The notes beneath the pieces are model-generated. The model saw only the letters and a program-made list of their open reading frames with translations, did not search any database and had not been told where the DNA came from. A program made the position numbers and the translations under genes. This document shows positions 3,501-58,130 of a DNA stretch of 64,000 bases, one piece after another; the first letter of the stretch is position 1, and the number at the start of each line of letters is the position of its first letter. Origin of the DNA: Anaeramoeba flamelloides (lineage: Eukaryota > Metamonada > Anaeramoebidae); NCBI GenBank assembly GCA_027625915.1, contig JANTQA010000010.1, positions 1 through 64,000 on the forward strand, read 5' to 3'.

Positions 3501-6500
3501 TTTTGGTTAATTTAATTTGATAATTGATCATGGATGTTCATTTGGGAATCGTTTTTTAATTGTTGTAATTTCTTTTTTCTTTTTGATCTGATATGCTTTA
3601 AACCTTTGGACATTTTTTGCCTTTGCTTTTTCTTTTTTATTTCTCAAGTTACTCATACTTTCGTGTTTCAGTGCCACAGTATTAGCAAGTAACTACTTGC
3701 TTTTTTTCCTTTGTAACTCTTCTTCCCAAGATAAAGAAGATTCAGCCAGTATAAAATGGAAAAAGATAAATAATATCATTACTAGCCTATACTGGCAGTG
3801 TGAATACATTAAAGAATAAATTTAAAAAGATTCACAAATAAAAAATTTATAAAAAAAAATAAAAAATAAAATAAATTCCCAAATGAATTTCTTTGGGAAT
3901 AATTTTCCAAAAAGAAACTTGACAAGAAGAGGAATTTGATTCAGGAAAATATGAAAAAAAAAAAAAGATATTTTCTATATAATTATAATTTATTCTCCAA
4001 AATTTTATAAACCAAAAAAATTGAAATATAATTTCTAATTTTAAAAATTAAATAAAAAATGTAAAATGAATTGCTAAAATTTTGAACTTGTTAAATAAAT
4101 AACTGTTTAATGATCTAAATAGAAAAAAAAAAAAAAAATGGCATTTTATAATTTTTTCAATAGATTATTTGTTAATTTTAATCTTTCAATTCTTTTTTCA
4201 ACTGTTAATCATTTAATTATTATAATTAATTTCTTTATATTTATTCTATTTCTATTTCTTCTTCTTATTTTTTTAATTAATTTTATAGGGTAACCTTTTT
4301 GTCTTTGAATATAATTGAAAAAATGCAGATGAAAAAAAATTAATTTGTTTTTTTGATGAAATTTTAATTACTTTGAATCAATATTTATAAACTGAATATT
4401 GTTCCATTCGTAAGATAATAAATATATCAAACTGGAATTATGATCATATAAAGATTTAAGAAATCATGTTTTTTTTTCTGATTTCTTTGTTTATTTTCTA
4501 TCGAAATAACTTTAGTAAACAAATAATTTTTTAAAAATCATAATTTTCCTGAAATTTTCAATTTCCAATCTTCAATTATATAAACTTACTTTAATTTATG
4601 AATTTAATTTTAAAGTTTAACCCCTTGTTCATTTATCTTTCACTTACTTCAAATAAACCACAATAAACAAATAATTACTGAAAAAAATAAAAAAAAAAAA
4701 ACACAAATTCATAAATTAACTTCAAAAAAAACCTTCAAATAATAAAAAAATTATAAAAAAAATGGATTAATTTTAATCAAAATACAGTTTCAAGATTTTT
4801 GGAACAATTTTTTAAAAAAAAAAATCAAAATAAAAATAAATCTTAATCAATCACTCCAGATATAAAGAAAATGTTTACTAATTTGTGAAAAGAAGAAATC
4901 AAATCCTTAATAATCCTTAATATATCTATGGTGGGATAAATAAGCAATTTAATGTTTAATCTTGGAAAAAAATATTTAAAATAAAATTATAAATCAATAA
5001 ACATTAAAAATTCGAGAAAATTTGAAAATAAAAACTCAGAAAAAAATAAAAATAAGTTCACTTTTCAAATTATGTATTAAAGACATTTTGAGATAAAAAT
5101 TCCTAAATATAAAAAAAAAATGGAACAAATAATAATAAAGAGATTTTTTCTTATTTTTTATTTTTCTATTAAAAATCTATTTAAATTTATTTTTTCCAAA
5201 CTTTTATTTTTTTTTATAAAACATAAAACAAAAAAAATCAAAATATATGATCTTTATAATTTAATGTTAATTTTTTTTCCATCCAATAATTTGATTTAAA
5301 TCAAAAAAAAATAATAATATATATATATATATATATATAATTTAGTTTGGAAATATTGATTTAAATTTAAATTGAAATTATTGATTTTACAAATTAATCT
5401 TTTAATTAAACAATATTTTTTTTAAAAATATTATTTCCTTTTTTTTTAAAAAAAAATAATAAACAAAAACAAATAAAATCTAGGAATCATGAATGTCGAA
5501 ATTTGACAAGTTTTTTTAATTTCAAATTAGAAGTAATTGAAAAATATGATGAAGAAATTTATGAAGAAATTATAAAAACCTTTTATTGTTTACCATTAGC
5601 AGCAATTGTTGACAAACAATTCTTTTGTGTTCATGGAGGGATATCGCCAAAATTGAAAAAAGTATCGATGATCAATTCAATTAATAGGTTTAAGGAGGTG
5701 CCAACAACTGGATTGTTTGGTGACTTATTGTGGTCTGATCCACATCCAAATTATAATGATAATAATAAAACAACAAAATACTTTACCAGAAACAATGCAA
5801 GGAACTGTTCATTTTATTATTCGTACCAAGCTGTGAGAAGATTCTTATTAATCAATAAATTGACATGTATAATCAGAGCACATGAGGCACAAGAAGAAGG
5901 GTTTAGAATGTATTTAAAGATGAAAGAAACAGAATTTCCATCATTAATAACCATCTTCTCAAGCCCCAATTATGTTGGGATCTATAATAACAAATCAGCT
6001 CTATTTAAATACAAGCCAAAGGCAGTAACCATTAAAGAATTCCAAGGTGTATCTGAACCTTATTGGTTACCAAAATTTGTGGATATATTTTCTTGGTCAA
6101 CACCATTTATAATAGATAAAACAGCTTTAATTTGGAACAGCATTCTATCTCTAAAAGATAAAGAAGAGGAGAGTGGGGAAGAAAGTCAAAATCAAAATAA
6201 AAATAAAAATGGAAATGAAAATGAAAATAAAAATAAAAATATTAAAGAAATAAGAAATTCTGATATTAATAAAATTGGAAATAAACAAAATAATATTTTT
6301 TTATCGATCCAAAGAGGAGAAATTATTAAAACCAAAATTGGCTTTTTACAAGTAATAATGAGCGATTTTCTGAAAATGAGAAAGAAAAAAGGAAAACTAT
6401 TTCTTTCCAAAAAGGGGATTAACAATGTTCGAAGAGGGCATTCAATATTATTATCATCTGTTTTGCAACGAAACAAAACAAACTCTTTTCAAATCCAAAG

Positions 6501-8281: not shown

Positions 8282-9175
8282 ATCCCTGTTTCAAAAGATA
8301 ATACTTGCTTTTTTTTCAGCTTGTTTCAATTTAAAATCTAATTTATTACTCAATAGTATACCTAAGTTCAAATCAATTTTTAATGTAAGATCTATGTTAT
8401 TTGTAGTAAAATTTCAATTATGAAACAAAATTTTTGATTTTTTTGTTTTTTAAATTTATTTTTTATTTTGATAATTAAAAATATTCTAAAAAATTTATTT
8501 AATTTTTTGAGACAAATTTCCAATTTGATCTTTCATTTTTAGATTTTCCTTTTTAATATTAGAACATTAAGAAAAACCAAGACAATATTTACTTGTTTTT
8601 TGTTGACTTCTTTGATTGGTTAATGTAAAGTAGTGAAAAAAATACCGGACATGAAAAAAATCCCTGACAAGATTTTTAATTGTGAATATTAGAAAAATTT
8701 TTGTGTAATTTCATTTATTTTCAATTAAATCCTTTTTTTAAGAATCAAACTTCTAAAAATTATAGCTCACCCACTTATTAGAATGATGATTAAAGAAATT
8801 GCACTTGTTCAAAACACCATTCAATTAATCAAAAAACAAGAATAAAAATTATCAATTTCCAAACTCTAGTAAACCTCTATAAAATTAGATTGTTTTTCAA
8901 AAAAAGTTGATCTACTTATGCTATCAAACAATTATTTGGGTTTTCAAGAGACACACCACTTTAATGAACTTTAGGTGGGTTTATTATTGAGTTTATAAAA
9001 TATTTGATTATTTATAAAAAGGATTTGATTGAAAATAAAAGAAATTACACAAAAATTTTTCTAATATTCACAATTAAAAATCTTGTCAGGGATTTTTTTC
9101 ATGTCAGGTATTTTTTTCCCTGTTATATAGTTCTTCTCTAAATAAAGAAACACCTTTTTATTTTAAAACTGGATT
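8282..9175. mobile_element. MITE-like element, family 2, split by a later insertion
   Basis: Aligns with 20214-20626: shared AGTATACCTAAGTTCAAATC and GATTGGTTAAT blocks, and inverted ends of the form TGTTTCAAAA...TTTTGAAACA in the better-kept copy. The element is interrupted at 8628-9125 by a family 3 element that the other copy lacks. It has no open frame. Confidence 0.75.
8628..9125. mobile_element. MITE-like element, family 3, with ~100-base inverted ends
   Basis: The two ends are near-perfect inverted repeats for about 100 bases (AAAAAAATACC, GACATGAAAAAAATCCCTGA and onward at the left, their complement at the right). The other family 2 copy carries the unoccupied site (GGTTAATCTATAGG near 20570), which shows a TA target duplicated on insertion, as Tc1/mariner-type transposases do. 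It is 498 bases long with no transposase frame. High arm identity suggests it is younger than its host element. Confidence 0.85.
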
Positions 9176-9898: not shown

Positions 9899-10337
9899 CT
9901 GTTGTGGAAAAAAAGTGAAACTGGAAAAAAAGTGAAACACAGTTTTTAATTGGGAACATTACTGAAAATGAAAATTAAAAGTAAAATCAATAAAAAGAAG
10001 AAACCAATTAACTTCAAATAATAACCCATTATATTATTTTCAATCAACCCAACAAATACAATTTAAATCAACTTGATTTATCGAAATTGTTCTTGCAGTT
10101 TTGGAGATCTTAAAAATAGTCAATTTTTTGAACAAATTTTTAATAATTGATCAATCAAAGAAAAACCCACACTAAAAGATAGTATTTAAAAAACTGTTAT
10201 TGTGATGAATACTTCATTTTGTCTTTATTTATTTATTTATTCTTTTTTTCATTGATCTTACTTTTAATTTTCAGTAAGGTTCCCAATTAAAAACTGTGTT
10301 TCACTTTTTTTCCAGTTTCACTTTTTTTCCATAACGG
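9899..10337. mobile_element. MITE-like element, family 1, well preserved
   Basis: Inverted ends of about 55 bases, almost perfect. Each contains a doubled GGAAAAAAAGTGAAAC unit, followed by AGTTTTTAATTGGGAAC. The outermost CTGTTGTGG (left) and CCATAACGG (right) resemble Tc1/mariner termini. It is flanked by TA on the left and TG on the right, consistent with a decayed TA duplication. No coding capacity. Confidence 0.85.
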
Positions 10338-14924: not shown

Positions 14925-15605
14925 CCAAAATTTAAAAACCGTACTTAATTTTCGAACATTGGATAACGAAAATATTAATTGACAAACTGAGGAATTAAAA
15001 TTATTAGATTTAGAATTAACGGTTTTACGATTCGCCAAATTGGAAAACTCAACTAGTTAAAAAGTTCAAAAATATCTAAAAATTATAAAACAACAAAATC
15101 GCAATTTTAATTAACAAAAAATTTAAACTGGAAAGTTTCAAAAACAATTCTAAAATTTCGAAATTTTACGGATTATTTAAATAAGTACTCTTATGGAACA
15201 AGTATATATAAAAATAAAAATTGTGATTTATGTAAAGAAAAGTTAAATATTGATATCATCGAAAATTTCAATCATTTTTTATGTTAATGTCCGGCCTATG
15301 AAAAAAATGGATATATATATATATATATATATATAAACAAATTTTATAAAAAACATTAAAAAATTGATAATATCTCTACTATTATTAATAAAAAGAATTT
15401 ATCATGTATATTATCATTAATAAGCGATAATAGAATTTGTGATTCTTTACAAAAATGTCTAAAAAAATGTTTAGAAATTAGATGCGTGTCATCAAGTGCC
15501 TATGTTTTTTTTTATTTCTTAAATTAAAAAAAACCCTAACATCACATACCATAAAAGCAATTTTCTCTCTTCAAAAATAAATAAAAATAAATAAAATCAA
15601 AGTTT
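14925..15605 (+). mobile_element. Degenerate LINE C-terminal/3' UTR copy
   Basis: About 85% identical by eye to the - strand copy at 30654-31766. It covers the C-terminal domain with the remnant CxxC-H-C knuckle (GTGATTTATGTAAAGAAAAG; CATTTTTTATG), and ends with TTTTCTCTCTTCAAAAATAAATA. An (AT)n run interrupts it at about 15308-15337. Its 3' UTR carries an extra ~70-base block (connector plus half palindrome) that the 30.6 kb copy lacks. Confidence 0.75.
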
Positions 15606-15773
15606 TATTTTTAATTTATGAAATTAATCGAAAATTTCTTATATTATCTTTCTAATTCCTCAAATTAAAAAAACCCTTGGTACAAGCTTTGATGGATAAT
15701 CTTCTCCGACTTAATAATTTTTAAAATATTTTTCTTTTCATCCAGAAATATTTGAAATTATTGTTTTTTCAAG

Positions 15774-21500: not shown

Positions 21501-24500
21501 AATTGATTAAATAAGTTTTTTTTTTTTCAAAAATTAAATTTTGAATTGGAGTTTAGATTAGTGATTTTTAATCCGACTCAAAATGATTTCAATTCAATAT
21601 ACACTTGGAGAAATAAAAAATTCTATTTTTTTATTTTATTTTATTATTTAACGGGGGAGTTGTTAATTCCTCTTATTTACCATTAGGTTTTTTTTAATTT
21701 GAGAAATAAATCGAAAATTTATTTAATTTTCGGTTTATTTCTTAAATTAAAAAAAGTTGCTTTAGCTTTTCCAGAATTTCAAAAATATTTATTAAAATCA
21801 TCGATTTTGCAATACCTTTTTAAATTAAAGATAATCTAACAGTGTTTTTCTTGAGGTTTTTTTTTAATCCATAAAGTGTTCTAGGTTTTTTCGAGGTTTT
21901 CTATTTTATTTGTGAAGTGTTCTAGGTTTTTTTAATTTAGAAATAAACCGAAAATTTATTAAAATTTTCTGTTTATTTATTTATTTTTTTATTTTGAAGG
22001 GAGGAAACTAGTTTCCTCTTACAGCCCTGATTTCTAAATTTTTGTTTAGAAATTTCAATAAAGAGTCATAATTTTCTTTTTTTATCATTAACCAATGATA
22101 AAATAAATAATGAGTCTTTATTTCGAAATAATATCAAGAATATTATTCTTCAATTGCTTATTATTTTTATTTATTTGAATTAATTCCTTAATCCAAATTT
22201 TTCGATTTTTTTCCATAGAATGGGCAGTCCCATAGAAAATGATCGATATCTTCTATTATTTCCTGATTTAAATGTTTTTTTACATAAGTTGCAGAATTTT
22301 GTTTTTAATTTATTTTTTATCATAAACATAAGAATATCTGTTTAGATAATTTGTGAAATTTCTTAATTTTTAAAATGGAAGTTGAACCTACCCATTTTAA
22401 ATATTTTTGTTGTTTGTTGATATTGTTATTGTAATTAATAATTTTTAAATATTCTTGACCTTTCCACCCAGAGCTATTTATAATTAACTTTTGTCTAAAA
22501 TCATTTAGGTCTACATTTAGTAATTTTAAGTTTTCTATTTCCCAATTGATATTTTCATCTTTTTTCTTGGAAAATTTTAATTTTTGTGAAATGTGATCAA
22601 ACCCAAGTATTTCTAATTTTTTTTTGAGTTTATATCTTCTTTTGTAGATTGATATTCTTGCTTGGTCAAGTTTAGCTTCAGTTTTATAAATTATTCTTGG
22701 AGAGTGTGGATTTATTTTTAAAAATTTTGTTACTTTTTTATTTATCCAAACATCAATTGAGTCTAAATCTTTTTGGTTTAAATTAAAAATTACAAGTCCA
22801 TAAAATAATTGGCTAATACATATTGATTTAAACATTTGTAATTTTACTCCATTGGCGAGTTTTTGTTGGCTAAAAATTTTTTTAATTTTTTTAAAACTAT
22901 CTTTTACCTTTTCAAATTTTTTTTTCAAATAGTTTTTCTTTTTCAAACCAAATTCCTAAATATTTTATTTTTGATAGAGTTTTTGACTTTAGTGTTTTCA
23001 ATATTTGGATTCATTCCAAATTCTTGAATAATTTTAAAGATTATAATTAATTTTTTGTCGATTTCTGAAATTGTTCCTTCCATTATTAAAATCAAATCAT
23101 CTGCAAAAATTTGAACATGTTTTGCAAGGTGTTTAATTTTTTCAATTAAAAAATGACTGATAAATCAAAATTTTCTTTTTATTTCAAAAAGTAAAAAAAA
23201 CCTAACGAAAATCTATTGATTTTCCACATAAATAGAAAACTCAAAAAAACCAAACGAAAATCTATTATTTTTCTAAATAAACAGAAAATTCAAAAAAACT
23301 GCTTTTAAGTTTTCCAGAATTCAAAAGAATTGGGAAATAAAATCTTAGATTTGACCCCATTCCTTTAAATTCTCGAAAATATTTTTTCAAGGATTTCTGC
23401 TTTATCAAGAAAATATATTAATTTTTGGAATATACAGAAACTTAAAAAAAAAAACAACATCAAAACAAAATTTAAAATAATAAGCTCTACTTCCATTTTA
23501 AAATTAAGAAACTTCACAAATTATTTTAATAGATATTCTTATGTTCATGATAATAAATTTAAAACAAAACTTTACAACCTCTACAAAAAATCATTCTTAT
23601 TTGGATATTAGATTAAAGATATCGATCATTTTCTTTGGAATTGTTCCAAACTATGGAGAAAATCGATAATTTTGGATTCAAGAATTAACCCAAATAAATT
23701 TAAATAAACAAAAAAATATCTTTGGTATTATTCAAAATAAAGTATCATTATTTCTCTTGGCATTGGTTAATGATTGGGAAAAATATGATCCTTTATTAAA
23801 ATTTCCAAATTAAAAAAAACCTAACGAAAAGTGCCCTAAAGTTCCGTAGAGTTGATAGCTTTTCCAGATTTCAAAAGAATTGAGTAAAATCTTTGATTTT
23901 TCTCCATTCTTTTGAACTCTGGAAAAACCAAAGGTATTTTTTTTTAATTTGTTGTATTATTATTAAAAGGAGAAATTTTCAATTCCTATTATTTTCCCTA
24001 ATTCCTAAACTTATATTTTGAAATTTTTTTATTAGATTCAAACAAACAAAAAAAAAAAATTATTGTATTTAGACACAAATAAGTTATTTACTAATAATTT
24101 ATAAAAAAAATTTTTTCATCTCATTTTCTTTTCCTAAATTCACTTTTTCTTTTGATATTTTCTTAAAACAAGATCAAAAATTAATATTATTTACCTTTCA
24201 AATTAAAATTTTACCACTGATTCTAAAATTAACTAATTTCCTTATTTAAAGGTTGATGATGAAGAAACCTCGCTTTATTTAGTAAAAAATATTGAATTAT
24301 TTGGAAGATTGGGAGGGTTTAATTTATTGTTAAAAGAATTGAGAACTTTAGATGATTCAATTGACAATATTTTTACTACTAAAAATTATTTACAAATTAT
24401 TTCTGAAATGATCCCGTATTTATCTCAAGATTTTGCAGGTAAATTTTTATTACCATTTATCAATATTATTGAAAAAAAGATCGTTAATTATTGGAAACAA

Positions 24501-28885: not shown

Positions 28886-31800
28886 TACTGTTATTTTATC
28901 AAACTATTTTATTAATTATTTAAAAAATAATGATTTTAATAATTTTTTTCAAAATATATTGAATTATATTTATCAGCTATCAAATTTAATTACAAAGTTT
29001 AATATTTTTGCTCAATATTTGGATGAAATTGTTAATTGTATACAATATTCTTTTTTAGTCTTAAACTTAATATTTCAAAATAAAACTGATTTATGGCAAT
29101 ACATTCAAGAATATTCTTTTGATAAAATTACCTTTCTATTTTTATTTCGAGAAAACAATAAAATAATAAGAAAATTATATCTAACCTTTTTAAAAATATT
29201 ATTAACAGACATTAAACCAGAAAAAAAACAAGAAATAAATTTGCTATTTGCTAAATTGTTTATTAAATTATTACCACAAACCATAAAATATTCAAAAACA
29301 ATGAAACAATATTTCCAATTATTTAATATGACTCTAAATAATTTAAATAATGATTCATTTCAGGAATTAGTATTATTAAATGAACATCTTTTAAATAATA
29401 TTATTAAAACAATAATAAATTTCAAAAATATTAATGACACACCAAAAAAATGTGACCAAGTTATGAAAGGCAATCTTACGCTACTTTCAACATTGGTAAG
29501 AAACGATTTAACAATTAATATGAAAGAACAATTAGAAGAAAAATTTAATTTGATAAATGAATTATTCAATAAATTTTTATTCAGTTATGTTCCAATAAAT
29601 GCATTCCCCAAAAGAGACCACAATTTACCAAAATTAAAAAATATTAAAACTAGAAATATTTGTTATAATTTATTAATAAACTTTGTTCATAATTCAAAAA
29701 AAAATACCTCCATTTTGATCAAAATGGTATTAAAGCAAATGCAATTTATTAAAATCCCAGATGGCTGGGGTTATGTCCCAATAATCAATGAAATTGAAAC
29801 AAATGTTTTGAATTATGTTGGATTAAGAAATCAAGGTAATTTTTAATTTATTTTTTATTTTTTTTTTTATATCATCTTATCTGTTACATTGTATAAGAGA
29901 TTTAATTGTCATCATTATAATTTTTTTTTTTTTTTTTTGTAAAAAGTTTGAAAATATCAAAAAATTTATTCATTTTTAAATGATCGATACAAAATAAAAA
30001 ACAAACTGTTTCCAATTAAATACAAAGAATTAGGAAAACAATTTTTTTTTATATATAGATATATCTATTTGAGGTTAATTTGGCTATAATTTTACTTAAT
30101 AATCAATTTAATAAGCTTTTAATTCTCAATTTTAGATATTCCTAGAAAAATAATTTGTTTTGAATTAAATTCTAGTAACTTGCTCTACCATTTAGTTTTA
30201 CAATTTAGTTTTCTCACTTAGAACAACACTTGAGTCAATATAAGTTAGCAGGCAGAAAAAGTTTTTTTTGAAATTAAAATAAGAAAACCAAATTAGTATT
30301 CATTTTCTTTGAACATCTAAGAATAATAAATTTAAAAAGTAAAAATATTTTTTTTTTCTTTTTTATAAAAAGATCTAGGCACTTATTGGTAGTCATAAAG
30401 TAGGGAAATTGTACTAACATTTTAAATTCACTTTTCAGAAAATAGAAACAACACAATCCTCATAAGAAATTCACTAGATTCAGTACATTAATTTTGAAAA
30501 AGCCAACAAGATCTAAAGAAAGCTCAGTCTTTGAAAAAGTTGAAAAAAGTTCACACAACAAGAGAAAACAAAAAATAATTTTTAAAAACCATAATTTTTT
30601 AATTTATTTTAACATCAAGTCGAACTACATTAACAAAAAAAACTCTAAAATTTTTTTTTTTTTTTTTTTTTATTTTTGAAGAGAGAAAATTGCTTTTCTC
30701 CTGTGTGCCCTAATTTCTAAACTTTTTTTTAGAAATTTTGTTAAAGAATCACAAATTTTATTATCACTTACTAATGATAATATATATGATGAATTCTTTT
30801 TTATTAATAATATCTCTGATATTATTAATTTTTTTTATTTTTTCAAAAAATTCAGATATCCAGATTTTTCGATTTATTTTATAGGCCGGACAGTCCCATA
30901 AAAAATGATCGAAATCTTCAATGATATCAATATTTAACTTTTCTTTACATAAATCACAATTTTTATTTTTATTTTTACTTGTTACATAAGAGTACCTATT
31001 TAAACAATTAGTAAAATTTCGAAATTTTAGAATTGTTTTTGAAGCTTTCCAGTTTAAATATTTTTGTTGTTTGAAATTGCAATTTTGTTGTTTTATAATT
31101 TTTAGATATTGTTGAACTTTCCAACTAGGTGAATTTTCCAATTCGGTTAATCGAAAACTTTTAATTCTAAATCTAATAATTTTAATCCCTTAGTGTGCCA
31201 ATTAATATTTTCATTTTCCAATTTTCGAAAATTTAGTATTGTTTTTAATTTTTTTAAATTTAAGAAATCTAATTTTTCTATCAATTTATATTTTCTTCGG
31301 TATACTTTTAATCTAGCGAGATCAATTTTTTGCTTCAGTTTTATAAATTAATCGAGGTGAATGGATATTAATTTGTAAGAAATTTGTGACTGATTTATTG
31401 ATAAATCTATCAATTCTTTCAAAATCATTTTGTTTCAAGTCAAATATTTCAAGACCATAATAAAGTTGACTTAAAATGAGAGCTTTGAAAGAAGTTATTT
31501 TGACTCCATTGTTGAGTTTATTTTGTTGAAACAATCGATTAAGTGTTTCCAAGGACTTTTCCACTTTTTTGAAATTATATTCAAGATGCGTGTTTTTTTC
31601 TAACCAAATCCCAAGATAAAAAATATCTTTTAATTCTTTTTTATATTTGGTTTTTTTATTATGTGGGTTCATCCCGAATCTTTTTATTATTTCAAAAATA
31701 CTTTCTAAATTAATTTTTAGAGAGATTAATGGCCCTTTCATAATAAGAATAAGATCATCTGCATACAAAACTCTAAAATTTAAAAAAAACAAAGATCTTG

Positions 31801-35779: not shown

Positions 35780-36477
35780 TATAAATCATATTTTTTGATT
35801 AATTTATTTTTGACTATTTATTAAGGATACAAGTTTACTTTTATATATTTTATTTTTTTCTTTTTTATTTTTATTTTTATTTATATTTTTTATTTATATT
35901 TTATTATTCATCAATATTTAAAATTAAATTTTAAAAATAATAATATTCAGTAAGAAAATTTTTGACGTTTGTTGGGTTAAATTTTAGATTTTAATAAAGA
36001 TAGCATTTTGCAGAAAAAAATTTATTGTTGAAAGAAGATCACAAATATTGTTATTTGGAACAAATAAGATTAAAAAAACATCTTTATAAAAATAATCTTA
36101 TCAAAGATTGGTTTTCTTTTTGGTAAAGTGAATTTCCTATTTTTACACATATTATGAACGATCCTGAGTATAATTGAGAAAAAATTTCAGTTGAAAATAC
36201 AATTGAATTAAAATTAACATTAAGGGAACCTTTTTTTCGTGTTAAAAGGGCAAACCAATAAAAAATGTTATTGGTGATATTCTATACTTTCTTATTTTAT
36301 AGATACATAACGTTTTAAGCCATTTTAATCTTCTCAGAAACACCAAAAAGGAAAATATTAAAATTTAGATCTATTTTTTCTTTCCATTTTTTCAGCAAAA
36401 GAAATTATTTTTCTTATTATTTATTGAATTTTTCATTAAAAAGTGAATATTCAAAGTTCACCTTTTGACCATTATGT

Positions 36478-36640
36478 TTTCCAGAGTTTAAAAGGATTAA
36501 GTAAAATATTTGATTTTACTCAATTCTTTTGAATTCTGTAAAACCGCCGTTAGCTTTTCTTGATTTTTCTGTTTATTTGTAAAATCAATTGATTTTTCAG
36601 ATAAAATAGAAAATCTTAAGAAAATCATATGCACTCTACA
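36478..36640 (+). repeat. Two adjacent palindromic modules
   Basis: First palindrome 36479-36548 (CCAGAGTTTAAAAGGATT arm against its complement). It is followed by a second class centred near 36591 (CTTGATTTTTCTGTTTATTT arm against ATAGAAAATCTTAAG). A connector (GCACTCTACAGTATTTGGAG) follows. Confidence 0.7.
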
Positions 36641-36929
36641 GTATTTGGAGTACTCCACAAAAATATTTTCAATAATATAAAATTATAAAACATAATTTAT
36701 CAATCAAGGGTATTTAAATTATCCATTAAGTTCAACAATTTACATTTTCAGAATAATTAATAATCGCTTAAATAGATATTACAAGGCATGAAATAAAAAA
36801 AATGAAATAGATTTTATACTTTTTATTAACAATATATACAGAAAGAAACAATAGAAATATCATCCACTTTTTTATGGTATCTGTCCTTCGATTATTACGA
36901 GAAGGCATTATCAAAAAAGTAAGTCATTT

Positions 36930-46544: not shown

Positions 46545-46975
46545 TTGAGTGGTAAAGCGTGCCATAGAGTGTTTCAAGTGCTGTATAGTACCTAGGAATT
46601 TTTTAATTTTTAAAATGATAACGAAATTAAATGTATTTTCTTTACATTTCAAAAAGTAAAAAAAACTTAAGAGCAGTTTTCTTGGGGTTTTCCGTTATAT
46701 TTGTAAAATATATTGATTTTCGTTAGGTTTTTTGTACTTTTTGAAATAAACCGAAAATTTTTTACAATTTTCTATTTATTTCAAAAAGTAAAAACAACCT
46801 AGAACACTTCACAAATAAACAGAAAACTTAAGAAAATCCAAAAAATTTTTTTTCATTTATTTAATTTGAGAAATAAACCGAAAATTAAATAAATTGTCCG
46901 TTTATTTCTCAAAAAAAAAAAAAAAAAAACCTAACAACAAACAGGGAGTAATTTAGTAGAATCATCTCTCTTCAA
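46545..46975 (+). repeat. Composite palindromic element with LINE-type 3' hairpin
   Basis: It starts with a connector (AAGCGTGCCATAGAGTG ... ACCTAGG), then palindromes at 46729-46792 and 46858-46925, separated by the AACCTAGAACACTTCAC connector and reversed ACTTAAG modules. It ends in a short stem (GGGAGTAATTTAG...CATCTCTC) followed by TCAATAAT and an AT run. The order of parts matches 49555-50110. Confidence 0.7.
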
Positions 46976-47445
46976 TAATCAAATAATATATATGTATATA
47001 TATATATATATTTATATATAATATTAATCCCAATAATTCAGTTCCGAAAATCTTTAAAAATAAGTCTGGTCTTCAGATAATCATATTTTTATTTTATTTT
47101 TCAATTACAGTACAAGTAAAAGTTTTTATAATTTACTATTAAAAATACTTGAAGATTTTTTTTATGGTTACTAGTCCCTAAACTGAAAATTTTCCCAACT
47201 TTTTCATTTCAAAAGGGAATAATAAAGAATTCACTTAGTATCCAAATAAATTCAACTTCAAATTTTGTAAAACCTTCTATTTTAACAATTTTTCAAACAA
47301 TAAAAATTATTTTAGTACTTTTTTGGTTACTGAAAACAAATTGAAAAATCCCAATTAATCATTTTTTAAACAAATCTTGTATCACTATAACTCTTCTTTT
47401 TGCTCAGCCAAATCCATTTATTCGGCTAATAAGATAATCCTGAGG

Positions 47446-49038: not shown

Positions 49039-50700
49039 ATTTTGAAATTTTTAAAAAAAAATAATTAATTAAAATAATAATAATTATTTGAAATATTTAT
49101 TTTTGTAATAAAAAAAAAATTATTAGTTTATTATTATTTTTTTATATTTATTTATTTTTATTTTTTTATCTTTTTTCTTATCTAAAAGAAAATGTTGGTA
49201 ATTCAATACATCAATTATTCATCATAAAACAAGTTAAATAAGTTTTAGAAAAAAATGAACCTATAATATTATGATGGGCTTTTCAACATTTACATTATTT
49301 TCATTTTTTTGGTAGAATTTCCTCGTTTCAAATTTCAACAAAAAAATTTTCAATTCCATCAATTGTTTTGGATCAGTTGAAATTTAGAACTAAATTGATA
49401 AAATTGAAAAATTTAAATGATTTTTTCAAATAGAAATCCAATTGTAAAAAAAAATTAGAAAGATCACAAAATAATGTTATTTTTTAAATACCTAAATTAT
49501 AGTTAGGATAAAAAACTATAAAGCTAAGTTTAGAGTTTTAAAAAGTACTATAGAATGACATAGCGTGCCTGGCAAATACCTAGGTTTTTTTTAATCTAAG
49601 AATAAAACCAAAAATTTTTGAAATTTTCTGTTTATTTCTTAAATTAAAAAAAAAATTCCTAATAATGATTTTCTTGAGGTTTCTATTTATTTGGAAAATC
49701 AATAGATTTTCGTTAGGTTTTTTCTTATTTGGTAAATAAAAAGAAAATTTTTGAAATTTTTGGTTTTATTTCAAAAATTAAAAAAAACCTAGAACACTTC
49801 ACAAATAAATAGAAAACTCAAGAAAACCTAACGAAAATCCATGGATTTTCCAAATAAACAGAAAACTCAGTAAAAGTTAACAAAACTTTTCCAGAATTCA
49901 AAAGAATAGAGATAAAATCTTTCATTTTACTCAATTCTTATAAATTCTGGAAAAGCTAAAGGCCATTTTTTTTTAATTTGAGATTTGATTCAAAAACTAA
50001 ATAGATTTTCTTTTTATTTCTCGAAAAAAAAATAAAAACCTAATGACAAATAGGAAGTAATTTTATTGAATTACCTCTCTTCAACAAGAAATTAAATAAA
50101 TAAAAAAAAAATTTATTAATTACTTTTTCAAAAAAAAAAATTCCTTTACCAAAAAATTTTTTACAAGTTCGAAACTGAAAAAAAATAAATTGCTTAAATA
50201 CTATTTATATGTTTTCTGAATTGCTCAAATTTCTTTTTAAAAATCGATTTTTTATTTCAATTAATTATTTTTTTTCTTTACTTTTATTTATTTTCTGTAA
50301 ATCTCCTAATGGATGGTATTATTTTAAGATAGTAAATAAAAGATCTTAATTTGAGAAAATAAAAAGATTCAAAGTACTTAAATCCATTTACAAACTATTT
50401 CCAAAGTTTTTCTGTTAATTATGTTTTTTTATTAAAATAAGTTTCAAACTTTTATCAAAAAAAAACTAAATAATTTAATTTACTCTATGCAAACATGCGA
50501 ATTTTGAATCTAAAATGATTTATAAACAAAACTGTTTTTTTTTTTTTGAATAAAAGTAAAAAATAAATTAATATGTAAATTCAATATTACTAATAATTAC
50601 ATTATCATAAAAATTAAAAATATTTTGTGTTTATTATAAGCATTAATATTAATTAAATATATTAGATTATAATTATCATCGCCAATATTAATTGGTGATA
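49039..50700. other. Gap between convergent genes, with one composite element
   Basis: Lies between the + strand LRR gene and the - strand USP gene, whose 3' ends face each other. Apart from the palindromic element at 49555-50110 I see only AT-rich sequence. Confidence 0.6.
49555..50110 (+). repeat. Best-preserved composite palindromic element
   Basis: Order of parts: head connector (ACTATAGAATGACATAGCG... ACCTAGG); palindrome A 49583-49655; module B 49673-49720; palindrome A again 49717-49790; connector CCTAGAACACTTCAC; module B in inverted orientation 49817-49873 (core AAAATCCATGGATTTT); palindrome C 49878-49955; half palindrome A; connector CCTAATGACAAATA; a stem (GGAAGTAATTT...AATTACCTC); then TCTTCAACAAG and an A-rich tail. 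Nearly all 550 bases are part of some inverted repeat. No open frame. Poly-A tail and LINE-type hairpin suggest spread by LINE machinery. Confidence 0.75.
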
Positions 50701-52734: not shown

Positions 52735-55406
52735 TGACCAATCTATTAAAATCTTGGAGGATTATTATTATTATAATTAAATGTTTGTTTGTTTATGTGT
52801 GTTTAATTAGTTTTGGTTGTACAATTATTAATTTCGTTAATGTTGTTGATTAAAATGTATAAAGAAGTCTCTTTTAATTTTTAATGAAAGAAAATAGTTT
52901 GAAACAATAATTTTTAAAAATTCTTGCACTTACTTGATATTGTTTTTCTTATAACGTATAAGTTTTGGTTATTTCAAAAAATATTATTTTTTTTTAAGCA
53001 AGTAGGTAAATTTTACCATTTTTAAAAATTTTAATTTGGAGAACATTACTGAAAAAGATTTTTTGAGAGTACCACAAGATATTAAAAATATGAAAAAAAA
53101 ATTTTCGTTTCTCTGCTCTATTTGTGAAAAGGTTCCAAAAATAAACCCAGAGTTGAATCTGTCATTTTTCAATTTTTTGGAACATTTTTTTTTTGATTAA
53201 ATTTTTGGTATTATTAAATTATGTTTTGAATCTAGAAATGTGTTTATGTGAATACTTGGAATTAATCATTTAACAAAACAAAAAAAAAAAAAAAATAGAA
53301 CCTAGGAAGGTGTGTATTTTAAACAAATATTTTTCTTTTGAATATCAAACAAGAAAGATCGTCTCACCAAAGAAACTTTTTGAAATCCTATATGGAAATA
53401 ATTTTTCTCAATAAAAGTATATTTTTTAAGATATTTCTTCTTGATCTTCTTAATGTGGAGGAGAATAAACAATTTTTTACCTTGAATTTCTCATCCCAAT
53501 ACTATTTATTATTATTTTAAACAGTAAATGTTTTTTACAACTCTGTTTTCAAAATTGTATTTTCAAATTTTTTTCTCAGAATATGCCAAAACAAAAATAC
53601 TATTTCAAAAATTAAAGTAAAGGATATTTATTATCAAAATTAAAAAATAACTACAAAAGTTCAACACAAAGAGAAAAAGAAAATTTGGTAGAAAAAATTA
53701 AAGAATGATTCGGAATTATTTTGAGTTTTAACGAATTGATAGAAAATTTATTGTTTTCAAATCAAATAAATAAACCCAATAAATATTTTTCTTAAGAGTA
53801 TTTTAAAAAAATATCCTATTTTCTTGAAACAAATCTAATTGAGATGAATTAAATTAAAAATGTAATGTAAAATTCATTTTTATAAATCTTTAGAAATAAA
53901 AAGTAATTTTTTTCTCAAAAATTGTACAAAAGTTTTTTCGATTCAGAATTAAAAATAAAACCAAATAAAGAAGAAATAATTGTATAAAAGATTACAGTTA
54001 AGATCAAGAAATAAATAATTTTTGATTTAATTTTTCTTGATCAAATTTTTTCATTATTTAATTTGGTTTCCAATTTTTTTTGGTTTGAAAATATATTACA
54101 CACTAGGATATAGAACGCTTCCCTATTTAGTAAAATATTCATTTATTTGGTTAAAGAAATGGTTTTAATAATTGAGTTTCACATAAATGGTGGTACTCAA
54201 AATTTTTAAAATGTATATACCCCCTTCACAAAAAAAATATTTTTTTTGAGTTCTTATTTGTTGCTACACTAGTATGAAAAAATAACATTGAAAATTTTAA
54301 GTTAGACAAAACTATTACTTTTAATTAACATTTCATCCTGAGTAATAAAGTTGTAAATTATAATATAATCAACATTCAAGAACTTAAAAAGCTTGGTGCT
54401 GTTGTATTTATTGTTGTTAGTGGTACTACAATTTTTAAAACTCTCTAGCAGAAAAAAGGGTCTTTTTTGGAGGTAAAATTTTTTAAATTCCTTGTAGAAA
54501 ATGAATTTTAGTTAAATTCAACTTTGGGATATTTGTTTAAATAGATAATAACCATAAATTTTGAAAATGCTCTATTCATCTAAAAAAATAACAAAATAGA
54601 GGAAAAAAATTACTAATGATGAATATTCCGTGTCCTGGGTTTTCCAAGATTTATAAGAATCGAATACAATCTATGATTTTACTCTATTCTTTTAAATTTT
54701 GGAAAAGCTACTGGTGGTTTTATTGGTGTTTTCTGTTTTATTTGAGAAAAAAAAATGAAAATTAGAAAAATTTTCGGTTTATTTGAAAAAATAAAAAAAA
54801 AAAACTAACGGAGTGTCCTATGTTTTCCAGAATTTAAAGGGGTAGAGTAAAATCATATGTTTTGACGCTATTCTTGGAAATTCTGGATAACAAAAAAAAA
54901 GTGCCGTGGAGTGCAGTCAAGTGTAGTCAAGTGCATAGGTTTTTTTTAATTTTTGAAATAAATTGAAAATTTATGAAATTTTCTTTTTATTACTTAAATT
55001 AAAAAAAAACTAACGGCAGTTTTCCAGAATTTAAAACAATAAATAATTCTTTAATAGCCAAAATAATTGATACCCCATTGAAAAATCTTTATTAAATATA
55101 TAATTCTTTTAAAATATAATAAAATAACCTCTTAACTGTGAAAAAAAAATTTTCAAATTTGTTACTGTTATATTGAAAAAAAATAGAACCTGGAAAATTG
55201 GATTTTTGGACTTAAATTGTAAAATATCTTGAAAAATAATTTTTGATCAAAGATCTCTTATTAGTCAATAACGTTGCTTCCAATTGAAGTTATTAAAAAG
55301 TGAAAAATTAGCAAATCTTTTAATTTTTTTTTAAAATAATGTTTTTCATGATCTTGTTCTGCTTACCAAAAAATATTTAAAGCAATCAATCAAAATTTAA
55401 AACTCT
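52735..55406. other. Intergenic region, no gene
   Basis: 2.7 kb, shared upstream of the USP35/38-like gene and downstream of the next - strand gene. It contains palindromic modules at 54640-55030. A 62-codon frame at 52984-53172 has no recognised similarity and I do not call it. Confidence 0.6.
54640..55030 (+). repeat. Composite palindromic element
   Basis: Two CCAGAATTT-type palindromes (54643-54712 and 54824-54895), a connector with AGTGCAGTCAAGTGTAGTCA, a palindrome of the AAATAAA class (about 54938-55010) and a further half CCAGAATTT arm. Same modules as 49555-50110 in a different order. Confidence 0.7.
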
Positions 55407-56519: not shown

Positions 56520-58130
56520 ACTATTTTTTTTTTAATATTGAAGAAGTGTAAATAACACTCTAGATTGTCCTTAAGAATTAAATTTCTGAAATAAAATTTA
56601 AGAGTGAAATCATAGAAATATAATTATTAATTAATGAAAATTAATCCAAACAATCTTGTTTTAATATTATTTCATTAGGATTTATTTCTTTTCATTTTTT
56701 CTGAAATATTAATCTATCTTTTTCATAAGAAAGGCATACCAATAAAAAATGATCATTATTTTCTCTCATTTCTTTCTGTTTATCGTTTAAACATAAAGGA
56801 CAAAATGTACTTGAATTTTTATTGGTTGCATAGTAAAAACTATTTGTTAGAAGTTAGTAAATGTTCTGAATTTTAGAATTGTTGAATTTGAGGTATAAAT
56901 TAGATATATATATATATATATTTGATATTTTAAATAAATAATTTAGATTAGTGATTATTGCGAAATATTTTTGTGGGTGTGTTTTTAAGTATATAGGTTA
57001 CCTAAATGTTCCAGAATTCAAAAGAATAAAGAAAAATCAAATTTTTAATGTATTATATTGAATTCTGAAAAACATAGGACACTTCCGAAGGTTTTTTTTT
57101 AATTTTTGACATAAACAGAAAACTCAAGAAAACCTAACGGTGTTTTTTTTTAATTTGAGAAATTAAATAAATATTCTTCTAAAAAAAGGTCAAAAAAGCT
57201 AAACGCTGTTTTTTTTTTTTTAATTTTAGAAATAAAATATTACAGTGGTTTTCTAAAAATCAAAATAATTGAGTTTAATCTTTGATTTTACTCTATTCTT
57301 TTGAATTTCAAAAAGTTAACTAAATATTAATACCTTTCCAAATTGTAGAATTCGGCAACTCATTATATGTGTATTTTTATATTTCATTTTTTAGTTCGAT
57401 TAAATCTTCAGACTTCCATTTTTTTTATTTGACTATTTTTTGGTTAAATTTTATTAATTATACTCACTTAATCAGAGATAAATTTCCTAATCTATTTTTG
57501 AATTTAAATTTCTTTTTATTAACTGAAATTTCCCAAATTTTCAATTTTATAAATTTTTTTAGAAATAATAATTGATTTATTTCTATTTGTTTTACATATT
57601 CCAGTAATTCATAAAGCAATAAAGGAATTTATATAATTTATTGTTTTTATTTTATAATTGAATATTTCTAATCAATAGGTCAATTATCTTTTTATAGAGA
57701 ATTTAAATAATATAATCTTTAATCTTTTGTTCAGACTTGTTATTGGATAATTGTTTGCAGTAGTTATAGTTTTCGTATATTTTTTTTAAAATTATAAACT
57801 ATATGTGAATTTTTTTCTAAATAAATACCCAAATATTTAATTTTTTTAAAAATATTTCAATATAATTGTTTTATCTTCCCTAGGTTTTAATCCAAATTGA
57901 ATAATAATTTTTTTCTTAGATTGAATTTTATTTCTGATTTAATTTAAAATTAATTTCCTTTAATAATTACAATCGAATCATTGACTAATATTTGACATAA
58001 AGTTATAATTTTATATTTTGTTACAAATTTTAAATTTTTTCCTAATCTTTTTGAGATAAAAATATTTTAATCAGAATAAAATAGATCTTTATGGCCTGTA
58101 TTCAAACAATTTGATAATTATATATCTTAT
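56520..58130 (-). mobile_element. Long decayed LINE copy, interrupted
   Basis: Belongs to the same subfamily as 31847-32418 (AGTGTAAATAACACT hairpin; ATTTCTGAAATAAAATTTAAG; AATGATCATTATTTTCT; GCGAAATATTTTTGT). It continues past an insertion at 56975-57320 with CCTTTCCAAATTGTAGAATTC... and upstream LINE sequence to about 58130, so it keeps more of the reverse-transcriptase region than the intronic copies, though without a readable frame. One of the older copies. Confidence 0.75.
56975..57320 (+). repeat. Palindromic element inserted in a LINE
   Basis: Two CCAGAATTC palindromes (57009-57078, 57246-57316) with CCTAACG-type connectors between. Removing it restores the LINE sequence seen at 32260-32290. 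The LINE bases AAATATT occur on both sides (56963-56969 and 57322-57328), a candidate target duplication. Confidence 0.7.

Follow-up and report, generated by a model that had tools for sequence, protein, structure and literature searches.

At 49555-50110 of the window, by which we mean the whole 64,000-nucleotide stretch analysed here from the start of contig C11 of a eukaryotic assembly (254 Mb, 76 contigs), lie 556 bases that read as one palindrome after another. The question that they raise is what kind of element is built in this way, and how it comes to be repeated. The initial annotation proposed a modular family, with palindromes of three classes (A, B and C) joined by short fixed connectors in different orders, almost every base lying in an inverted repeat and the arms staying paired despite substitution.

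A chain of hairpins upstream of a retroelement tail

Both an inverted-repeat search and folding with RNA and DNA parameters describe 49555-50110 as a chain of hairpins. The predicted RNA minimum free energy is -130.2, compared with -80.9 for shuffled sequences (sd 5.42, z -9.10), and with DNA parameters z is -9.01; in neither case did any of 100 shuffles fold as well, in agreement with the string of hairpins that had been predicted for the transcript. Inverted repeats cover most of 49580-50035, with arms of 69-75 nt at 70-78% complementarity, 53 nt at 89% and 25 nt at 96%, together with three further hairpins with loops of 2, 3 and 8 nt. Not all of 49555-50110 belongs to the string: approximately 50039-50088, at its 3' end, is the tail of a retroelement, and the left flank at 49489-49540 matches another retroelement, F2. 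No tRNA was found in the window, nor any Rfam match at gathering scores. The parts of the locus are as follows.

49489-49552, + strand: 3' part of the F2 carrier, forming the left flank of the string (49489-49540 matches L022, 86.5% over 52 nt; the remainder assigned by position)
49553-49583, + strand: degenerate head (GTGCC...CCTAGG)
49584-49651, + strand: A hairpin 1, from a module query match (arms 33 nt, 85% complementary)
49671-49717, + strand: B left arm (d unit) with GTTAGG end, from a module query
49718-49788, + strand: weak match (8 bits) to the A/Z type, taken as the central hairpin that the B arms enclose
49788-49823, + strand: B right arm (b' unit, with the CCTAGAACACTTCAC connector), from a module query
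49827-49872, + strand: B right arm (d' unit), pairing with 49669-49721 (53-nt arms, 89% complementary)
49886-49955, + strand: C hairpin, from a module query
49966-50036, + strand: A hairpin 2, degenerate, from a module query
50039-50088, + strand: retroelement 3' tail, from the tail query, with the terminal hairpin GGAAGTAATTTTATTGAATTACCTC followed by CTTCAACAA and an A-rich stretch

Short module queries run on the 20 best copies beyond the window and on the sampled pieces described below gave a usual order of head, C or A, B left arms, a central A-like hairpin (Z), B right arms, C, A and tail. The head consists of GAGTGCCGTA units ending in CCTAGG. The B arms are tandem units of 41-49 nt inverted around the centre, with b and d units before it and b' and d' units after, and in many strings the central hairpin is enclosed by them as a palindrome inside a palindrome. 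The A, Z and C units pair over 35-36 consensus positions and have loops of 3-4 nt. Within oriented strings the central hairpin occurs in both orientations (at pair 27/48, C.T in 16 and A.G in 5 of 30). Deletions, duplications and chimeric hairpins are also present; in L030, at 3902-3970, an A outer arm can be read directly as joined to a C inner arm. All eight C palindromes listed for the window (23309, 23862, 36479, 49878, 54643, 54824, 57009 and 57246) were recovered by the C query to within 8 nt, and the named connectors recur in sequence searches. The modular interpretation is thus partly supported: the modules do recur, but their order is largely preferred rather than free.

The strings are abundant and nuclear

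The genome is very A+T-rich (GC 20-24%). A 22-nt connector, CCTAGAACACTTCACAAATAAA, has 5,682 matches in it at up to one mismatch, compared with none for the control, which places the modules genome-wide; an exact search of the prokaryote and viral contig collections found it in neither. The window holds nine strings. A genome sample of nineteen 10-kb pieces (190 kb), taken at round coordinates and mostly on contigs from the module match list, gave 19 matching places, reduced to 16 strings by leaving out a 52-nt match in L030 and a tail-only match in L043 and by merging two neighbours in L037. Extrapolation from this sample gives some 20,000 strings genome-wide, with a wide error. Strong hairpins (24-nt arms at 85% or better, loop up to 8 nt, GC filter) number 10 in the 190 kb and none in each of five first-order Markov shuffles of the sample; 9 of the 10 overlap string modules and the other is an AT microsatellite. 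In the window, string modules account for 4 of 5. The strings are nuclear and do not belong to an organelle genome; contigs run to 24 Mb and carry a ubiquitin hydrolase, other nuclear-type genes and LINEs.

Two stretches of the window of 485 and 427 bases (8634-8669 with 9084-9118, and 9905-9938 with 10298-10331) have ends made of two tandem 17-18 nt units, inverted at the opposite end, and are perhaps another type of miniature element.

Most strings lie in or beside other mobile elements

In the 254 kb formed by the window and the nineteen pieces, 21 of 25 strings lie within 400 bases of a LINE, of F2, of a third element, F3, or of a retroelement tail (9/9 in the window, 12/16 in the sampled pieces). 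In 2000 random placements the mean was 5.8 and the maximum 14 of 25. The F2, F3 and tail queries were partly derived from string flanks, so that these counts are to some degree circular; LINE protein similarity is not circular, and by this alone 10 of the 25 strings adjoin a LINE. In 9 of these 10 the string runs in the orientation of the LINE, by our own assignment, which is not firm for the strings at 23167 and 56997. Four strings have no recognised carrier, and two of these share a flank. Besides the string at 49555-50110, the window contains the following.

15484-15620, + strand: short string at the 3' end of a LINE fragment (LINE matches at 14991-15488)
21643-22028, - strand: string with two retroelement tails; a LINE fragment (22320-22955, -) lies upstream of it
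23167-23390, + strand (orientation not firm): string followed downstream by the C-terminal part of a LINE fragment on the + strand (23483-23647)
23829-23951, + strand: string, from a module query and LINE comparison
36466-36628, - strand: C and B arms beside a LINE fragment (36660-36797, +), in the opposite orientation
46556-46979, + strand: string with a tail in carrier F2
54620-55040, + strand: string lying centrally in carrier F3, between the flanks 54267-54609 and 55028-55357
56985-57335, - strand: string within a minus-strand LINE fragment, which it divides into 57335-57457 and 56623-56973

The string at 36440-36650 is the only one of the ten LINE-adjacent strings to run opposite to its LINE.

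Identification of the LINE rests on the copy in L030, where 2131-3018 matches the reverse transcriptase domain RVT_1 above the cut-off (E 3.4e-17) and the enzyme is weakly similar, among solved structures, to a reverse-transcriptase-like protein and to group II intron and R2 enzymes. The 162-residue LINE piece in the window has RVT_1 and RdRP_1 matches only below threshold, and its comparison with solved structures returned no reverse transcriptase, only six chance-like hits of up to E 1. No relative of the LINE was confirmed among viral contigs. The L030 copy is interrupted by a 357-nt string between INKQ and KYLKW and carries a second string where the frame ends; having a stop and a frameshift further upstream as well, it is not an intact element.

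F2 ends in a terminal hairpin and an A-rich tail of the LINE kind. F3 comprises about 690 bases plus the string, with approximately 345 bases on each side of it and imperfect short inverted ends (CACTAGTATGAAAAAA / CAAGATCATGAAAAAA); its borders are similar in most of the six copies compared (L026:1043-2434, L028, L029, L037, L041 and window 54267-55357). The idea that F3 is itself a giant palindrome was rejected, as its two flanks do not match each other. Two strings at L033:7874-8186 and L033:9470-9782 have left flanks that are 69% alike over about 310 bases and may mark a fourth carrier family.

The carrier retroelements terminate with short hairpins, GGAGGTAATT..AATCACCTC, GAGGAAACTAGTTTCCTC, GGAGAAAAGCAATTTTCTC or GAGGAATTAACAACTCCTCC, followed by CTTCA or GTTAAATAATAA and then by an A-rich stretch, and the stems vary between families yet stay paired (window 50039-50088, 46930-46979, about 30670-30715 on the - strand and 21988-22028 on the - strand; tails of L012, L016 and L020). 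A paired terminal hairpin with a tail resembles the 3' tails of stringent-type LINEs. Read by eye, the LINE frame runs through this hairpin (ending in LEIRAHRRKAIFSLQK and a stop; window about 30670-30770 on the - strand and L030:3870-3920), so that the stop codon of a LINE with a string at its 3' end is a new one, provided by the string.

One LINE site is found both filled and empty

A single position in the LINE frame, S1, occurs with and without a string. The intact LINE reads CAAACAACAAAAA here, and filled copies read CAAACA, the insert and then ACAAAAAA. The empty-site pattern AACAAACAACAAAAATATTTAAAATGG has 263 matches at up to one mismatch and the filled right-junction pattern CTAACGACAAAAAATATTTAAAATGG has 204, with none for either reversed control; for most of the 204 an insert is deduced from the junction pattern, three copies having been read in letters. 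Those three (L048, L049 and L050) each carry a single A hairpin between CAAACA and ACAAAAA, of 88, 89 and 88 nt, respectively, the latter two by coordinates. Such a single capped unit of 88-89 nt is the smallest insert seen. In L048, direct reading of the arms gives 33 pairs without a mismatch. Comparison of these three filled copies with the empty site shows no evident target duplication. The L048 insert starts GTCGTG and is nearly symmetrical. The hallmarks of a Helitron are a 5' TC, a 3' CTRR and a hairpin near the 3' end only, and that assignment was rejected.

The run of A residues at the site differs between the two states: six in 204 filled copies and five in 8, six in 29 empty copies and five in 263 (Fisher 2e-96), one place having fallen in both the filled and the empty lists of six. 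Filled copies being mostly A6 and empty copies mostly A5, the filled ones look like one or a few amplified lineages, although the A6 run adjoins the junction and may instead be a by-product of insertion. The small number of A6 empty copies (29) makes precise excision unlikely as the main source of empty sites. Among the matches listed, 7/14 filled and 25/41 empty copies have no stop in the LINE frame beyond the site (Fisher 0.54), a comparison that used a query from a filled copy and covered those copies that could be matched among 100 listed of the 204 filled matches and 80 of the 100 listed of the 263 empty ones, with most rows of a third list entered, the remaining rows fitting no junction by eye. 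With similar shares stop-free, filled LINEs are not evidently older wrecks, and the suggestion that they are more decayed was set aside.

The lengths of 25 S1 inserts, including those of L030 and L048, were taken by hand from coordinates to an accuracy of a few bases. They cluster at 88-117, 176-200, 258-267, 329-377 and 428 nt, four of them being 357-358, and their best period is 88 nt (R 0.72), equalled by none of 5000 uniform sets. Near-identical lengths may represent one lineage, and when these were merged to 14 values the best period was 85 nt, with 4.1-4.6% of uniform sets as good. This modestly suggests that whole hairpins are gained and lost at an occupied S1.

The two arms of a hairpin change together more often than in shuffles

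The example of a paired change given in the initial annotation, CCAGATTTC against GAACTCTGG, fails on direct reading, as it leaves a T.C mismatch. Double changes that preserve pairing number 71 in the A and Z hairpins, compared with 39.8 when the 3' letters are shuffled (0/300 as high), and 51 in the C hairpins, compared with 38.2 (2/300 as high), and they also exceed all six partner-shifted versions; in these counts related copies contribute repeatedly and the consensus-derived structure favours the unshifted version. Direct reading of L048 and L050 gives four arm pairs that differ, three of them changed on both sides. If pairing of the sense RNA were under selection, G-U pairs should exceed A-C mismatches on the sense strand. 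Instead 88 and 132 were counted in the 103 of 115 hairpins that had a string orientation, mismatches shared by descent counting repeatedly, and the wobble-pair comparison is negative for selection of this kind. At pair 16/58 of the C hairpin the mismatch C.A occurs in 27 copies, beside T.A in 10 and C.G in 9, which fits correction in either direction. We favour homogenisation of the arms at the level of DNA or cDNA.

Proposed colonies of hairpin elements riding in transposons

The reading that we prefer, with a probability of roughly 0.57, is that the strings are colonies of nuclear short hairpin elements, which are carried along by transposons and lengthen into strings. The unit would be a palindrome of about 70 nt, of the A/Z or C type, with a loop of 3-4 nt and capped by TTAGG/CCTAAC ends. 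Such units would sit inside other mobile elements, namely the frame and 3' end of the LINE, the retroelement F2 and the element F3, and would be copied mainly along with their carrier, a route to which the counts point. At an occupied site the string would lengthen, shorten and re-form as units are added beside or inside older ones, with the arms recombining and being homogenised against one another; it is the stepped lengths, the chimeric and inverted hairpins and the paired arm changes that point to growth and arm recombination. The entry of the first unit is best guessed to have occurred during reverse transcription, by template switching onto a hairpin RNA and back. With no target duplication evident and the orientation of the carrier mostly kept, such an entry would fit better than cut-and-paste. 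All of this evidence comes from comparing copies within one genome, in which no unit has been seen to jump. A host function is unnecessary for explaining the pattern.

The preferred order of the modules could instead mean a single long ancestral palindrome that inserted into an old LINE or F2, all else being products of its decay, deletion and recombination, rather than growth from single units. Chimeric hairpins such as that at L030 3902-3970 and the four S1 inserts of 357-358 nt would suit such an ancestor. It appears unlikely in view of the single-hairpin copies with clean junctions at S1, the lengths that step by about 88 nt and the unrelated element types that serve as carriers. A little less likely again is a foldback or MITE-type family of non-autonomous DNA transposons moved by a transposase. 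In Drosophila, Foldback and Galileo have long inverted repeats built of internal repeats, and Galileo has a P-type transposase. The b/d and b'/d' units here likewise form long inverted repeats with internal tandem repeats, the 41-49 nt units being inverted around the centre like the ends of those elements, and strings occur in several host elements. Unlike in Foldback and Galileo, the strings examined showed no protein, and at S1, for which the empty site can be compared, there is no evident target duplication; most strings also keep the orientation of their carrier.

It seems improbable that the retroelements use the string as a functional, structured 3' region of their own, whose hairpins bind the reverse transcriptase or stabilise the RNA and whose pairing is under selection. 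Many strings do lie directly upstream of the retroelement terminal hairpin, in a preferred order and mostly in the orientation of the carrier, with paired arm changes above shuffles. Yet many copies lack a string, the empty-F2-type junction having 237 matches against 263 for a tail that follows a string, being preceded by CCTAACGG (up to two mismatches each), and on the sense strand A-C mismatches outnumber G-U pairs (132 to 88). Strings are present, too, within the frame of the LINE and in F3, an element in which a tail of this kind was not observed. This distribution over LINE frame, retroelement 3' ends and F3 argues for a separate hitchhiking hairpin element and against a part of the 3' UTR. 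Least credible of all is a LINE kept functional because its in-frame inserts are introns or are skipped during translation. The 204 filled junctions and the similar stop-free shares (7/14 and 25/41 among the matches listed) agree with it, the latter weakened by a query from a filled copy and by the use of listed matches only. By eye, no GT...AG pair in L048 would remove just the insert and restore the frame; precise removal also predicts A6 empty sites, yet there are 29 of these compared with 263 A5.

Relation to known hairpin repeats

Palindrome mosaics are known as REP and BIME elements in bacteria, and the mobile byp elements of mitochondria are hairpins within reading frames. The strings differ from both in genome and in sequence. 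The closest descriptions are of organelle DNA. In Volvox carteri the mitochondrial and plastid palindromes are reported as 11-77 nt long (mean 50) with loops usually of 3-5 nt; they are A+T-rich in the mitochondrial DNA, form families with shared arms, occupy intergenic regions and introns, are inserted in one another to give elements of up to 633 nt and are said to appear selfish (PMC2670323). As far as that account goes, the strings are alike in being built of short hairpins of up to about 80 nt with small loops (here an 88-nt insert including its caps) and in nesting palindromes in palindromes (here the central hairpin within the B arms), and unlike in their nuclear location, in lying mostly within retroelements and another repeat element, and in having heads, connectors and a preferred module order. 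Elements in sponge mitochondrial DNA, the double hairpins of Allomyces and the GC clusters of yeast are described as hairpins in tandem, some of them inside genes; the absence of flanking duplications in Allomyces prompted the proposal of an RNA intermediate (PMC2800124). These units are mitochondrial, and transposon carriers are not mentioned in the parts of that account drawn on here, whereas the present strings are mostly transposon-borne. The introner elements of Amoebophrya are outlined as invasive hairpin-forming inserts in genes that are spliced and in many cases have border direct repeats of 3-5 nt (PMC7789003). They resemble the strings as hairpin-forming inserts in protist genes; on that outline they differ in that neither splicing nor border repeats are evident at S1.

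Since these look-alikes are organellar, the strings would be a nuclear variant of their kind rather than a member of it. The initial annotation knew of no named family with this modular design, but organelle palindromic repeats share it. A literature search showed, among the titles listed, none fitting such nuclear hairpin strings, which does not show them to be unpublished.

How hairpin repeats that spread and nest in organelles move is debated, with proposals in both the Volvox study and the account of mitochondrial elements (PMC2670323, PMC2800124). The present strings extend repeats of this design to a nuclear genome, where it occurs at thousands of places and where one LINE site is available in hundreds of filled and empty copies, so that entry, growth and arm homogenisation become testable by comparing copies at S1. 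Tentatively, and with rather less assurance than the reading as hitchhiking colonies, the strings may represent a nuclear mobile class that consists of a hairpin only, which enters transposons leaving no target duplication, probably in RNA form by way of the carrier's reverse transcriptase, rides to perhaps 20,000 places and multiplies there while its arms copy each other. The pattern points to a gene-less parasite of transposons.
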